Part shown: piece by piece, positions 42,713 to 51,594 of the stretch
Position numbering within the stretch: the stretch's first letter is position 1
Layout of the letters: the number at the start of each line of letters is the position of its first letter
From: Flavobacteriaceae bacterium
Lineage (GTDB): Bacteria > Bacteroidota > Bacteroidia > Flavobacteriales > Flavobacteriaceae
Assembly (NCBI GenBank): GCA_018402135.1
Contig: JAGYJF010000003.1
Coordinates: 930,001 to 994,000, forward strand
Direction of reading: 5' to 3'
DNA: 64,000 nucleotides
Made by a program: the position numbers and the translations under genes
Notes under the pieces: model-generated
What the model was told of the DNA's origin: nothing
What the model saw: only the letters and a program-made list of their open reading frames with translations
Database searches by the model: none

Positions 42713-43480
42713 TTAAGCTTCGGTAGTTTTTGTAGTTGAAGCGACTGCTAAACTATAAATTACTAAACCAAATCCAATTTTGTTAACGGCATCTCCAATG
42801 TTGTAAACAACGTTCATTGACATTTGAGCAGCTTCAATGTTCGATACTAATTGTAAGCCAAATAAACCACCTTCAGTTCCTAAAATGTAACCTAGTGGGT
42901 AAATGGCCCATCCAACCAATACAAACCAACATAATACTTTGTGGGCTTTTAATACGGCTCCACCGGCTGTTTCAGCTAATTTCTTGCCTTCACCAAACCA
43001 AACAATGTAAACGATGATAAAGTATGCAATACCTGAGATTAGACCCCAAACCCACTGCATTGTTGGATTTCCGATAGCAACTGCTTCTCCAAAGTAACCC
43101 GTTACTAGCATTACAACAGACCAGAAAATTAATTTCCACATAAGGCCAACTTTTGCGCCAGCTACACGTAGAATTAAGAAAAATTCAACACACATTAATG
43201 GTACTGTTAATACCCAATCTACATATCTGAAGAATGTTGGAGACTCACCAACTTGGTCCCAATAATCTCTCATGTAGAAATAGTGCACTGCTGCAATAAA
43301 GGTAATTAAACCTGATACTAGAACCGAAGTTCTCCATTTTTTATCAAATTGGTTTAATGATAAAAAGAAAAAGGCTGAGGCAGCCATCATGGCCATACTT
43401 CCTACGAAAAAAGTAAAGCCTACATAATCATCGGTCGCAATTTGCTTCAACTGGCCGAGAGCGTAAAATAAATTATCCAT
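42713..43480 (-). CDS. Proteorhodopsin (light-driven proton pump)
   Basis: A 255-residue seven-helix retinal protein. In helix C, RYVDWVLTVPLMCVEF gives Asp, Thr and Glu at the positions of D97, T101 and E108 of the reference proteorhodopsin, the DTE set of outward proton pumps. Position 105 is Met, as in many flavobacterial green-absorbing forms. His75 and Arg94 equivalents are present. The retinal Schiff-base Lys lies in GDAVNKIGFG with the counter-ion Asp four residues earlier. The retinal is probably supplied by the divergent blh product. Confidence 0.97.
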   Translation of the reverse strand: MDNLFYALGQLKQIATDDYVGFTFFVGSMAMMAASAFFFLSLNQFDKKWRTSVLVSGLITFIAAVHYFYMRDYWDQVGESPTFFRYVDWVLTVPLMCVEFFLILRVAGAKVGLMWKLIFWSVVMLVTGYFGEAVAIGNPTMQWVWGLISGIAYFIIVYIVWFGEGKKLAETAGGAVLKAHKVLCWFVLVGWAIYPLGYILGTEGGLFGLQLVSNIEAAQMSMNVVYNIGDAVNKIGFGLVIYSLAVASTTKTTEA

Positions 43481-43497
43481 AATATTGTTAATTAGTT

Positions 43498-43537
43498 ATT
43501 TTGTGTATGTAAATTTACAAATTGTTAAACACAAAAT
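43498..43537. promoter_or_regulatory. Nested palindromes in the proteorhodopsin/blh divergent spacer
   Basis: Outer arms ATTTTGTGT (43498-43506) and ACACAAAAT (43529-43537) are exact reverse complements. Within them is the perfect 12-bp palindrome TGTAAATTTACA (43508-43519). The 106-base spacer must hold both promoters, and I found no clean TAnnTTTG box in it. A regulator-controlled promoter pair is the natural inference; the regulator is unknown. Confidence 0.55.
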
Positions 43538-43586
43538 GTTTAAAATTTTGTAAAAAAAATTAAACACTATTAAAATAATAACGACG

Positions 43587-44459
43587 ATGTATCAAAAAGT
43601 TCAATCAATACGGGTGGTGGCGACGTTTTTCGGGTTATGGATTTCAGCCTATATTTTAGGTAATTTTCAAGATTATGTAGCCTTTTTTCTTATATTTTCG
43701 TTGGGAATTCTGCATGGTTCTAACGATATTACGCTAATAAAACGCGCTTATAACACCAAAAATCTTACTTTTTTAAAGGTGTTAATGTCGTATTTATTGA
43801 TAATTGGTATTGGTACTACCTTGTTTTTTTTAATACCTCCTGTCGCCTTAATATTATTTATTGCATTTAGTGCCTATCATTTTGGTGAACAACATTTCCA
43901 TTTTTTAAAAATTAATAATAGCGTTATCTCTTATCTATTATATTTCGGATATGGACTGTTCGTGATTACCTTAATATTATATCTCAATGCAAGTGATGCT
44001 TTACGTATAATTAATGAAATGATTGGTGTTATTGTAAGCCTTGATGTATTAAGATGGATTTTATTAATTTCTGCAGTCCTAACTATAGCAGCAGGTGCGA
44101 TGGTCTATTTTAGGCAAAAGTTCAATGTTTTTATAGAGCTCTTCTATTTGTTCTTGTTTTCGGTTGTTTTTTTTGCTTCAAATCTAATTTGGTCGTTTGC
44201 ATTATATTTTATTCTTTGGCATTCATTACCGTCTTTGGCAGACCAGGTTCAATATTTATATAAAGAAGTTACGAAAGAAACCATTATACAATATATAAAG
44301 TCATCATTTATCTATTGGTTAATTTCGGTGGTTGGCTTTTTTGTTTTAGTGCAATTCTTAGAAAATAACCCAACGGTTATGTTATCTTTTTTCTTTTCCT
44401 TTCTTGCCGCAATTACTTTTCCTCATGTATTGGTGATGCATAAAATACTTAAAGATTAA
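43587..44459 (+). CDS. blh: Brp/Blh-family beta-carotene 15,15'-dioxygenase
   Basis: A 290-residue protein with about eight membrane segments. Conserved His residues expected to bind iron are seen in GILHGSNDI, AYHFGEQHFHF, LWHSLPSLADQ and FPHVLVMHK. The family cleaves beta-carotene into two retinals, the chromophore of the adjacent rhodopsin. No carotenoid-synthesis genes are in the window, so those must be elsewhere. The TAA shares a TTAA with the stop of the convergent TonB receptor gene. Confidence 0.92.
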   Translation: MYQKVQSIRVVATFFGLWISAYILGNFQDYVAFFLIFSLGILHGSNDITLIKRAYNTKNLTFLKVLMSYLLIIGIGTTLFFLIPPVALILFIAFSAYHFGEQHFHFLKINNSVISYLLYFGYGLFVITLILYLNASDALRIINEMIGVIVSLDVLRWILLISAVLTIAAGAMVYFRQKFNVFIELFYLFLFSVVFFASNLIWSFALYFILWHSLPSLADQVQYLYKEVTKETIIQYIKSSFIYWLISVVGFFVLVQFLENNPTVMLSFFFSFLAAITFPHVLVMHKILKD

Positions 44460-47676: not shown

Positions 47677-47704
47677 AACAAGTTGGTTTCAAAAACTCCT
47701 ACCT
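47677..47704 (-). promoter_or_regulatory. Predicted ECF sigma promoter before fecR (site A)
   Basis: On the minus strand AGGTAGGA (47697-47704), 16 bases, TGTT (47677-47680), then 22 bases to the fecR ATG. It matches site B (48623) at 28 of 35 positions, including TTTTT, AAAC and ATAAT outside the core. Confidence 0.7.
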
Positions 47705-47714
47705 TTATGAGGTT

Positions 47715-48233
47715 TTATTTTAAGCCTTCAACTTGTTCTTTCAATATTTTTAAGGCACCGTAGATTCTTTTTTCAACTGCTTTGGTCGAGATATTTAATA
47801 TTTCGGCAATTTCTTTATGTTTCTTTCCTTCAATTCTATTCATCAGAAATGCAGTCCTCTGCGCGTCGCTTAAACTTTCAATAGCTCTTTGTAGTGTATC
47901 CATGTATTCATTGCCTTGCATAATGAATTCTGGATTTTCATTGGTGTAATGTTTGGGTTTGATTGCTTGGTATTTCAATACTACTTTTTGATGCGCATGT
48001 TCATTCAACATTAAATTATTGGCAACCGTAAATAGAAACGATTTTGCTTTATCGGGCGTTACTTTACTGCAATTCTCCCAAAGTTTGATGAAAGCTTCTT
48101 GAACTTTATCTTTTGGATTAAAGTTTTCGCCAAATTTGTAATATAGAAAGTCATGTAAGTCCGTTGAATACCTTTTAAAGATAGCCGAATATATAGATTC
48201 GGAGCATACATTGTCATTTATAGCTTTTGACAT
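47715..48233 (-). CDS. ECF-type RNA polymerase sigma factor (FecI-like)
   Basis: A 172-residue sigma-70 family protein of group 4. Region 2 (about 12-80: YSAIFKRYSTDLHDFLYYKF, then KVQEAFIKLWENC) and region 4 with a helix-turn-helix (LSDAQRTAFLMNRIEGKKHK and EIAEILNISTKAVEKRIYGA) are clear. It lacks regions 1 and 3. It precedes fecR and the TonB receptor, the standard cell-surface-signalling order. No AGGTAGGA site precedes its own start in its direction, so it may not autoregulate through this motif. Confidence 0.95.
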   Translation of the reverse strand: MSKAINDNVCSESIYSAIFKRYSTDLHDFLYYKFGENFNPKDKVQEAFIKLWENCSKVTPDKAKSFLFTVANNLMLNEHAHQKVVLKYQAIKPKHYTNENPEFIMQGNEYMDTLQRAIESLSDAQRTAFLMNRIEGKKHKEIAEILNISTKAVEKRIYGALKILKEQVEGLK

Positions 48234-48246
48234 TTATAAAAATTTC

Positions 48247-48274
48247 AGGTAGGAAAATTAGCTTTTAAATTGTT
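48247..48274 (+). promoter_or_regulatory. Predicted ECF sigma promoter before the 100-residue gene (site C)
   Basis: AGGTAGGA (48247-48254), 16 bases, TGTT (48271-48274), 51 bases before the ATG at 48326. It shares the bipartite core with sites A and B but not their spacer bases, so it is the weakest of the three. Confidence 0.5.
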
Positions 48275-48325
48275 TAGTTACAAATAAAATAGTTGTTCCA
48301 ACGTAAACTAAATTCTTAATCTCTA

Positions 48326-48628
48326 ATGGAAAATCATTGCTCTGAAAATTCCAAAACAACAGTTTTACATGATTATGATTCTCAGTTACAGTGTCAAAAT
48401 TCGTTCTTAGATTTCGGACTGAGTATTTTATCATCTTATAACGAGCAAAAATTTCACCATAGTATTTTGATATTAGATGCGCTAAAAGAAAAATTGCTTG
48501 AAAATCCAGAAAACAGATTCCTTAAATTAAAATTTCAGCTTAAATTGGAACAATTAAAATCAATCATTTCAACTAAAAAACGCATCGATTTATTAAACCT
48601 AGAAATAAAAAATTTAAAATACAGGTAG
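48326..48628 (+). CDS. Hypothetical 100-residue helical protein in the ECF locus
   Basis: Not recognised. It has no signal peptide or membrane segment. Residues 45-100 are predicted by eye to be largely helical and charged (HHSILILDALKEKLLENPEN, then RFLKLKFQLKLEQLKSII). The gene is divergent from the sigma gene and 48 bases before the acidic lipoprotein gene. Its stop codon lies inside site B, so a promoter for the next gene is embedded in its 3' end. A cytoplasmic regulator or adaptor of the system is possible but unproven. Confidence 0.65.
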   Translation: MENHCSENSKTTVLHDYDSQLQCQNSFLDFGLSILSSYNEQKFHHSILILDALKEKLLENPENRFLKLKFQLKLEQLKSIISTKKRIDLLNLEIKNLKYR

Positions 48629-48650
48629 GAATTTTTAAAACTCACCTGTT
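48623..48650 (+). promoter_or_regulatory. Predicted ECF sigma promoter before the acidic lipoprotein gene (site B)
   Basis: AGGTAGGA (48623-48630), 16 bases, TGTT (48647-48650), then 26 bases to the ATG at 48677. Nearly the same distance from the start codon as in site A, and highly similar between the two cores as well. Confidence 0.7.
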
Positions 48651-48676: not shown

Positions 48677-50087
48677 ATGAAAACAATTGTATATTTTACA
48701 AAATTAATCACCTTTTTTACACTAGTATTTTTTGTTTCTTGCCAAGATGAGGTCACCGAAATTACCCAGCCTACCGAACAAGAAGCTTTAGTGCCTGATA
48801 CGCCGTTGGCACAAAATATTTTTAACATCTCAACGCTTAGTAGTAGCGCTTCCTCAATTGTAACAAATACTACATGTTTAACCTGTAGACTTGCCATTTT
48901 CTGTAATAGTAAACGGTATAGAGATAAGCGTTGAAACCGATGAAGATTATGATATAATAGCTACAATTTTTGATGAGTTTGATGATGATGATGACGAACT
49001 TCAAATAGTATATCCAATAACACTTATTTTATTTGATTATTCGGAAGTGGTTGTTAATAACAATGACGAATTAGAGTTTTATATTGAAGAATGCCTCAAC
49101 AGCTATAACGTAGATGATGATATTGAATGTATCAGTTTTGAATATCCCATAACCTTATCGCTGTTTAATACCGCGTTTCAATTTTTAGACACGTTTGTGG
49201 TAAATAATGATCAGGAATTATTCAATTTTTTAGATGATGATTTTGATGATGACGATCTGATTGTAGCTATAAATTACCCTATAAATGTCATTTTATTTGG
49301 TGGAACTGTGATTTCAGTAAATAATAATTTAGAATTGAATAATATAATAGAAGCTAACTCTGATGATTGCGATGATGATAGTAACACTAACATCTCAATA
49401 GAAGAATTAGAAGCACTATTATTAGAGTGTTTTTGGAAAGTAGATGATCTAGAAATCGATGATGAAGATTTAGATGATTTGTATGAAGATTTTCTGATAG
49501 ATTTCCGTGAAGGCGGAATTGTTGTGGTTACGAGTCCTCAAAGCCTTGTGTATAATGGTACTTGGAGTCTTATTGAAACAACAACTAGTATTAAGTTAAA
49601 CTTGCAAGTTGATGGCCTAGCTGATTTAAATAATGCAGGTTGGGTGTTCAGAAAGTTTGAGGACGACGACAACGACGATGAAATTGAGGTTGAATTCAGA
49701 AATATTGAAGATGAGCTTGAGTTAGAACAAGTATGTATTTCTACTAATAATGAGGAAGTTCAAAATTTAAGAAATATTATTACAGACGGAAGCTGGTTTG
49801 TATCGCTTTACTTTGATGATGAGGATGATACCTTAGATTTTCAAAATTTAACATTTGTATTTAATTCAAACGGAAGTGTTGACGTTTCCAATCAACAATC
49901 AAATGTTGTAATCGGAAGTTGGTCTTCGTTTACAAATAGTCAAAATCAACTAAAGCTATTACTCATGTTCCCAGAAGATAATAATCCATTGGATGATCTA
50001 GATGATGATTGGGATGTTATAACCTTAACCGAAAATAGAATTGAGTTAACCGATGATAACGATCTACTAACCTTTGAAAAAATTTAA
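48677..50087 (+). pseudogene. Asp-rich repeat lipoprotein gene, interrupted by a single-base frameshift
   Basis: The first frame (48677-48934) encodes a lipoprotein signal, MKTIVYFTKLITFF to LVFFVSCQDE, and ends early. The rest continues in the next frame to 50087. Skipping one base near 48884 joins them as NTTCLTVDLPFSVIVNG. The joined product of about 470 residues has four tandem repeats of about 42 residues (pattern [FY]PIT-L-LF ... VVNN-DEL) and two similar C-terminal domains beginning CFWKVDDLE and GSWFVSLYF, each with a later G[TS]W. Asp runs such as DDDDDE give a very acidic protein. Function unknown; cation or partner binding is possible. Confidence 0.75.
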
Positions 50088-50265: not shown

Positions 50266-51594
50266 ATGTTTAATAATTTAAGTGAAAAGTTAGATAAAGC
50301 CTTACACGTACTTAAAGGTCACGGCAGTATTACAGAGGTGAATGTTGCTGAAACCTTAAAAGAAGTTAGAAGAGCGCTTTTAGATGCCGATGTAAACTTT
50401 AAAATTGCCAAAGATTTTACCGTTAGAGTAAAAGAAAAAGCACTTGGTCAAAACGTTTTAACCAACCTGCAACCTGGTCAGTTGATGGTTAAAATTGTGA
50501 AGGATGAGCTAACCGAACTTATGGGTGGCGATGCCGAAGGATTGAATTTGTCAGGTGCACCAAGTATCATTTTAATGTCGGGTTTGCAAGGTTCTGGTAA
50601 AACAACTTTTTCGGGAAAGCTTGCAAACTATCTTAAAAATAAAAAAACAAAAAAACCTTTATTGGTAGCTTGCGATGTCTATCGTCCAGCCGCTATTGAC
50701 CAGCTTCATATTGTTGGTGAGCAAATAGGTGTTGAAGTTTTTAGTGATAAAGGAAATAACAATCCTGTAGCAATTGCTCAGGCAGGAATTGCTCATGCCA
50801 AAGCCAACGGGTTTAACGTTGTAATCATTGATACTGCTGGTCGTTTAGCTGTTGATGAGGTCATGATGAACGAAATATCGAACATTCACAAAGCTATTCA
50901 ACCGCAAGAGACCTTGTTTGTGGTAGATGCCATGACAGGTCAAGATGCTGTAAATACGGCAAAATCCTTTAACGATGTCTTAAATTTTGATGGTGTAATT
51001 CTTACCAAATTAGATGGTGATACGCGCGGTGGTGCAGCTATTTCCATTAAATCAGTAGTTAACAAACCTATCAAGTTTATTGGTACTGGTGAAAAAATGG
51101 AGGCGATAGATGTATTTTATCCTTCCAGAATGGCCGACAGAATTCTCGGTATGGGCGATGTGGTGTCGTTGGTTGAAAGAGCGCAGGAACAATATGATGA
51201 AGAAGAAGCTAGAAAACTTTCTAAAAAAATAGCTAAGAATCAATTTGGTTTTGATGATTTTCTGAAACAAATACAGCAAATCAAAAAAATGGGTAATATG
51301 AAGGATTTGCTCGGTATGATTCCAGGTGCTGGTAAAATGATGAAAGATGTTGATATCGACGATGATGCCTTTAAACATGTCGAAGCTATTATTCAATCTA
51401 TGACGCCAGCCGAACGATCAAATCCATCGCTACTTAATGCCACACGTAAAAAGCGTATAGGTAATGGTTCAGGCACATCGGTTCAGCAAGTAAATCAGCT
51501 TATGAAACAGTTCGAGCAAATGAGTAAAATGATGAAAATGATGCAAGGTGGTAAAGGAAAGCAGATGATGCAAATGATGAATAACATGAAATAA
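50266..51594 (+). CDS. ffh: Signal recognition particle protein Ffh
   Basis: A 442-residue SRP54 GTPase: N domain, then the G domain with GLQGSGKTTFSGKLA (about 106-120), DTAGRLAVDE and TKLDGDTRGGAA, then the Met-rich M domain that binds signal sequences and SRP RNA. The tail is unusually Met/Lys/Gln-rich (KMMKMMQGGKGKQMMQMM). It targets membrane proteins cotranslationally to the SecY channel whose gene is at 17840. Confidence 0.97.
   Translation: MFNNLSEKLDKALHVLKGHGSITEVNVAETLKEVRRALLDADVNFKIAKDFTVRVKEKALGQNVLTNLQPGQLMVKIVKDELTELMGGDAEGLNLSGAPSIILMSGLQGSGKTTFSGKLANYLKNKKTKKPLLVACDVYRPAAIDQLHIVGEQIGVEVFSDKGNNNPVAIAQAGIAHAKANGFNVVIIDTAGRLAVDEVMMNEISNIHKAIQPQETLFVVDAMTGQDAVNTAKSFNDVLNFDGVILTKLDGDTRGGAAISIKSVVNKPIKFIGTGEKMEAIDVFYPSRMADRILGMGDVVSLVERAQEQYDEEEARKLSKKIAKNQFGFDDFLKQIQQIKKMGNMKDLLGMIPGAGKMMKDVDIDDDAFKHVEAIIQSMTPAERSNPSLLNATRKKRIGNGSGTSVQQVNQLMKQFEQMSKMMKMMQGGKGKQMMQMMNNMK

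Follow-up and report, generated by a model that had tools for sequence, protein, structure and literature searches.

The window, i.e., the whole stretch of 64,000 nucleotides of Flavobacteriaceae DNA analysed here, carries on its minus strand the genes of an ECF sigma factor, a FecR-type anti-sigma factor, and a TonB-dependent receptor, and divergently, on its plus strand, the genes of a 100-aa protein and an acidic lipoprotein (Table 1). FecI/FecR-type systems are recognized by a sigma factor with regions 2 and 4 and by a FecR anti-sigma gene adjoining the sigma gene, and both are found here, with both Pfam models of each protein above their cut-offs. The best NCBIfam match of the sigma factor is TIGR02985 (Sig70_bacteroi1), at 108.9 bits and below the curated cut-off of 126.4. 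The start of the receptor gene overlaps the end of fecR, and the receptor has an N-terminal FecR_C-like domain, which scores 21.0 bits in the window, below the Pfam cut-off of 24.4, and exceeds the cut-off in three of the four orthologues tested. A search by sequence found no solved relative of the receptor at E <= 0.01. Directly after the receptor gene (42713-44459) lie two genes presumed to be rhodopsin-like and blh-like, an arrangement that recurs in G069, a sister species and the one further genome of the same genus compared, and was not seen in the other fetched loci. On the other side, a gene that we take to be ffh (SRP54-like) adjoins this locus in the majority of the long loci fetched and is a syntenic neighbour outside the regulon.

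The two divergent genes differ in their distribution. The 100-aa protein is nearly an orphan, for which the function search gave two database homologues alone (98% and 77% identical), to which one in G069 is added; it has no family match in Pfam or NCBIfam, and its gene is found in very close relatives only. By contrast, the lipoprotein has 388 homologues in the database search (120 of them listed); among the matches listed, the closest is an unbroken public sequence of 469 aa (98% identical), Paucihalobacter (91%) provides the closest match with an organism name, and the genera named there are, we assume, Flavobacteriaceae. The frame of the lipoprotein gene is broken in the window, which is either an assembly error or a truly broken copy. 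The protein is strongly acidic, with 65 Asp, 43 Glu, and 12 Lys + Arg residues (counted in P0001), and its structure model (mean pLDDT 80.6, pTM 0.48) gave a weak fold match, with a Bacteroides lipocalin-like protein as the best (E 3.1e-3) and nothing at E <= 0.001.

Table 1. Genes of the locus and motif sites in the window genome (other contigs as C1 and C5) and in the sister species G069.
Feature	Position	Strand	Remarks
TonB-dependent receptor, 769 aa	44456..46765	-	Plug 40.1 bits, above cut-off
FecR-type anti-sigma factor, 298 aa	46758..47654	-	FecR 66.9 bits, FecR_C 36.9 bits
Predicted sigma-dependent promoter of fecR-receptor	47677-47704	-	exact motif; between sigma and fecR
ECF sigma factor, 172 aa	47715..48233	-	Sigma70_r2 36.3 bits, Sigma70_r4_2 58.8 bits
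Predicted sigma-dependent promoter of 100-aa gene	48247-48274	+	exact motif; same place in G069
100-aa protein, no assigned family	48326..48628	+	homologues: two in database, one in G069
Predicted sigma-dependent promoter of lipoprotein	48623-48650	+	exact motif; same place in G069
Acidic lipoprotein with lipocalin-like part	48677..50087	+	ORFs 48677-48934 and 48891-50087, frame broken between
Presumed ffh (SRP54-like) gene	50266..51594	+	syntenic neighbour
GGTAGGR site, second acidic lipoprotein	C1:597806		29 nt before gene of 253-aa acidic lipoprotein
GGTAGGR site, outer-membrane barrel	C5:148702		17 nt before gene of 195-aa barrel
G069 site before fecR	C13:423696		
G069 site before 100-aa gene	C13:423126		
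G069 site before lipoprotein	C13:422753		
G069 site before second lipoprotein orthologue	C14:86678		orthologue 81% identical
G069 site before barrel orthologue	C13:173850		orthologue 76% identical

An exact scan of the window for AGGTAGGA-N16-TGTT returned three matches, and not a single match arose in any of 100 dinucleotide shuffles. The sites precede fecR, the 100-aa gene, and the lipoprotein gene, with 22, 51, and 26 nt, respectively, between TGTT and the start codon; that of the 100-aa gene lies 13 bp upstream of the sigma gene on the opposite strand, and that of the lipoprotein overlaps the end of the 100-aa gene. Over 35 positions, the sites of fecR and the lipoprotein share 28. These three matches, the agreement of two of them, and their distances of 22 and 26 nt from the start codons had all been described in the sequence-only reading and were confirmed. 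In the whole assembly (2.69 Mb, 89% complete), the exact AGGTAGGA form has four matches and GGTAGGR-N16-TGTT five, against one for the backwards control, all five lying 17-51 nt upstream of a start codon. When one mismatch is permitted, the genome-wide count is 15 versus 12 for the control, and with two mismatches, the window holds 4 matches versus 5.0 expected; because such loose matching approaches control or expectation, strict patterns alone were used for genome counts. The two sites outside the window precede the genes of an outer-membrane barrel and of a second acidic lipoprotein, the latter without a clear family in Pfam or NCBIfam.

Each of the five sites has a counterpart in G069 before the orthologue of the same gene (5/5). 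GGTAGGR-N16-TGTT has ten matches in that genome in all, and the other five are not tied to genes; at one of them (C1:240917), the nearest downstream frame is a 77-aa piece. The sequence-only reading had proposed a local regulon, and its three members in the window stand, whereas its confinement to the locus does not, because the two additional sites are found on different contigs and recur in G069. The motif is real and, as judged from sequence, marks a small, conserved regulon that is more than local. The proposed 100-aa target likewise holds in part: the site precedes the gene in the window and in G069, whereas the gene itself is limited to very close relatives.

The co-occurrence of motif and sigma factor was assessed by counting a stricter pattern, RGGTAGGA-N16-TGTTNTA, in 299 genomes of the family and searching the same 299 for the sigma factor. 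The stricter site is present in 82 of the 84 genomes with a close sigma relative (best sigma match E <= 1e-70; the misses are G051 and G109), in 21 of the 126 whose best match lies between 1e-70 and 1e-20, and in 3 of the 89 without a match at 1e-20 (G003, G023, and G178). The comparison of 82/84 with 3/89 gives a Fisher p of 6e-43, which is nominal because the genomes are related. Two earlier sets of 20 genomes, hand-picked from genomes with and without a sigma match, held 46 sites in 20/20 and 2 sites in 2/20 genomes, respectively, with one to four strict sites per sigma genome and 0 for the backwards control in both. In the genome G190, the best sigma match of which has an E of 1.1e-56, four strict sites occur (C1:1158977, 1672306, 1672876, and 2505467), two of which form a divergent pair 570 bases apart.

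Among 40 loci chosen by the motif (L071-L110), the sigma-fecR-receptor locus was found in 25 and was absent from 15. Since loci chosen in this manner are biased, 90 further loci (L111-L200) were chosen by sigma similarity, following the rank among the sigma matches listed and skipping those already fetched by the motif and some others; L111 is the window locus and was replaced by the window itself, so that 90 rows remain. Sigma position 155 is Lys in 60 rows (hereafter class 1), Tyr in 29, and a gap in one (L118). When the 60 Lys155 loci were scanned with up to two mismatches and a spacer of 16, 55 of the 57 with a recognized fecR had a site ahead of this gene, 55 of the 60 had one at up to 300 nt on the divergent (lipoprotein) side, and 52 had both, compared with 8/1200 shuffled and 5/1200 reversed 200-mers. 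In 48 of the 55 loci, 18-22 nt separate TGTT from the fecR ATG, and the fecR and lipoprotein sites are kept across many genera while the letters of the spacer vary. No site (up to one mismatch) was detected in the direction of the sigma gene within 300 nt upstream of it in any of 89 loci.

These counts bear on most of what the sequence-only reading had put forward. Its observation that the sigma gene lacks a site in its own direction extends to the 89 loci, its proposal that the local sigma factor recognizes the motif is supported by the 82/84 versus 3/89 comparison, and the lipoprotein gains support as a regulon member from the divergent-side sites in 55/60 loci. Two checks suggested there, on the frequency of the motif and on its conservation before orthologues, showed it to be rare (five genome-wide matches) and present before fecR in 55/57 loci fetched by sigma similarity. 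From these sequence comparisons, the divergent lipoprotein is predicted to be a general target, unlike the 100-aa gene.

Further targets are indicated in other genomes. In seven motif-chosen loci (L076, L085, L089, L091, L093, L095, and L106), the site precedes the gene of a secreted protein of approximately 157 aa, which is followed by a giant protein in both loci that were read further; the giant protein of L093, the one scanned, contains CUB, PKD, and a CHU_C type IX sorting domain. In L093 (675-8530) and L076 (2-3876), the site, the gene of the ~157-aa protein, and the giant protein gene run divergently from a series of genes that are presumably folE-, cysS-, and lgt-like. Fifty of the 299 genomes encode a homologue of the 157-aa protein. 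Thirty loci of this family were fetched, including the query's own and several met earlier by the motif, and 21 have an upstream site (up to two mismatches), each with at most 1 of 200 shuffles as good. Eight of the nine loci without a site lie in genomes with a close sigma relative, and the 157-aa protein is therefore no universal target; its gene is absent from the window genome and from G069. Other distal genes behind sites encode predicted lipoproteins (G145, G159, and G219) and further large secreted proteins, and several other motif matches have no convincing gene downstream.

The 29 Tyr155 loci, paralogous modules within L161-L199, define a second class of predicted promoter. RGGTAGGR-N16-TGTT is found in 57 of the 60 Lys155 loci, 41 of them with two or more copies (the misses are L180, L193, and L198), and in none of the 29 Tyr155 loci. 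Conversely, AAT(A/C)AGGA or AGTCAGGA-N16-TGTT, a pattern composed after the class-2 sites had been inspected, is found in 27 of the 29 Tyr155 loci and none of the 60 Lys155 loci. In an alignment of 27 class-2 fecR promoters, which are those selected for AGGA, TGTT is invariant and T(C/A) replaces GGT before AGGA. The class-2 paralogues, from other Flavobacteriaceae, likewise comprise a sigma factor and FecR, joined in almost every locus by a related lipoprotein, and share the spacer and TGTT; they combine T(C/A)AGGA with Tyr155, whereas the class of the window combines GGTAGGA with Lys155. In the sigma tree, all 29 class-2 rows group in a single supported clade (100/97, the bootstrap being not fully settled) nested within class 1; 27 of them were scored for the motif and 2 were not. 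Sigma positions 124, 133, 149, 152, 155, and 161 have no residue common to both classes, and all six lie inside the Pfam region-4 match at 113-162, region 4 being where the sigma factors of the two classes diverge most; positions 149-161 presumably lie in the recognition helix, judging from sigma structure. The class switch is one event on the tree, and hence the link between sigma factor and -35 box is a correlation. L180 (G007:C6:50000-58500) is sister to class 2, retains Lys155, and has neither promoter pattern; TGTTATATA stands before its fecR, where the -35-like box is different.

We consider it probable from these comparisons that a duplicated module of sigma factor, FecR, receptor, and lipocalin-like lipoprotein in Flavobacteriaceae has diverged into two copies acting as separate channels, through a change in the sigma recognition helix (e.g., Lys155 to Tyr) together with a change of the fecR promoters from GGTAGGA to T(C/A)AGGA, the 16-base spacer and TGTT remaining fixed. 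If true, single genomes would preserve a natural record of how one sigma factor splits into two without crosstalk.

The five copies of GGTAGGR-N16-TGTT are likely, with a probability of about 0.86, to be promoters recognized by the product of the sigma gene at 47715-48233; FecR would hold this sigma factor, and a signal from the receptor would release it. The test genomes each hold several other sigma candidates, and it is conceivable, if improbable, that another regulator, be it a repressor, an activator, or a different ECF sigma factor, binds the motif while the local sigma factor uses something else; however, two fixed boxes with fixed spacing at a nearly fixed distance from the ATG resemble a promoter, the presence of the motif tracks this sigma family, and the -35-like box differs in the very clade whose sigma region 4 differs. 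That the window sites are leftovers of a local duplication without present function might be suggested by the 376 bases separating the two plus-strand sites and by the restriction of the intervening 100-aa gene to close relatives, but such an origin is very unlikely given two more sites on other contigs and the conservation of the fecR and lipoprotein sites across many genera despite varying spacers. Accidental matches that the eye picked out of AT-rich sequence, which the loose-matching counts near or below control and expectation would allow, are hardly credible in view of the empty shuffles of the window, the strict-pattern counts, and conservation in the sister species and family-wide.

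The rarity and conservation of the sites, their co-occurrence with the sigma factor, their position in the locus, and the change of box in the paralogues make it very likely that the genes form a FecI/FecR-type surface-signalling system, in which the sigma factor would drive the anti-sigma/receptor operon and a few envelope genes and not itself. Briefly, a ligand would bind the receptor, the N-terminal domain of the receptor would contact periplasmic FecR, and the freed sigma factor would bind GGTAGGA as the -35 and TGTTnTA as the -10 element. The conserved site that precedes the fecR-receptor gene pair would drive it as an operon, and increased transcription would yield more receptor and also more anti-sigma factor, i.e., negative feedback; with its promoter between sigma and anti-sigma genes, the response would be self-limiting, and the sigma gene would stay outside its own regulon. 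Furthermore, the lipocalin-like lipoprotein, the 100-aa protein, the second acidic lipoprotein, and the outer-membrane barrel would also rise.

The same genome contains a second sigma/FecR locus of a Bacteroidota type at approximately C2:399415-406280 (L244), with genes that we take to be SusC/SusD-type and with the only other FecR match of the genome. The order of sigma, fecR, and receptor is the same in both, whereas the receptor of L244 has 1123 aa and is accompanied by a 460-aa SusD-like protein, without a GGTAGGR site, and that of the window locus has 769 aa and is accompanied by the divergent lipocalin-like lipoprotein. A local SusC/SusD polysaccharide locus was ruled out on the basis of that receptor and lipoprotein and of such a locus lying elsewhere in the genome, without a site.

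Among known systems, that of Serratia marcescens is similar: according to PMC9249621, HasI activates hasS and the receptor gene and not hasI, so that this wiring is known in one studied case. HasI/HasS/HasR likewise comprises an ECF sigma factor, a FecR-like anti-sigma factor, and a TonB-dependent receptor with a sigma gene that, in the same review, is not autoregulated, and a site before the anti-sigma gene with none before the sigma gene is the arrangement predicted here (55/57 and 0/89). The Has system functions in haem uptake, for which it employs a hemophore, and its -35 region reads TTTACGGGTTT (PMC9249621), whereas here lipoproteins and a barrel are the other predicted targets and the box is GGTAGGA. 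FecI/FecR/FecA of Escherichia coli consists of the same protein types, with the receptor gene in the sigma regulon; however, fecIR is described in the same review as co-transcribed by sigma-70, under Fur, and not autoregulated (PMC9249621). The window locus departs from this wiring, in which no sigma-dependent promoter precedes the anti-sigma gene, in having a predicted promoter between the sigma gene and fecR, and the receptor gene after fecR.

In the open-licence literature, little was found on promoter rules of Bacteroidota FecI-like sigma factors, and the promoter sequence, the target set, and the two-class split were not found there, an earlier prediction within ECF classification being possible. 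The present analysis provides a testable promoter sequence for a Bacteroidota FecI-like sigma factor together with a predicted five-site regulon in one genome, a conserved envelope target set across the family, and a pair of paralogues whose -35 specificity seems to have been altered, and acidic lipoproteins of unexplained role thereby gain a regulatory context.
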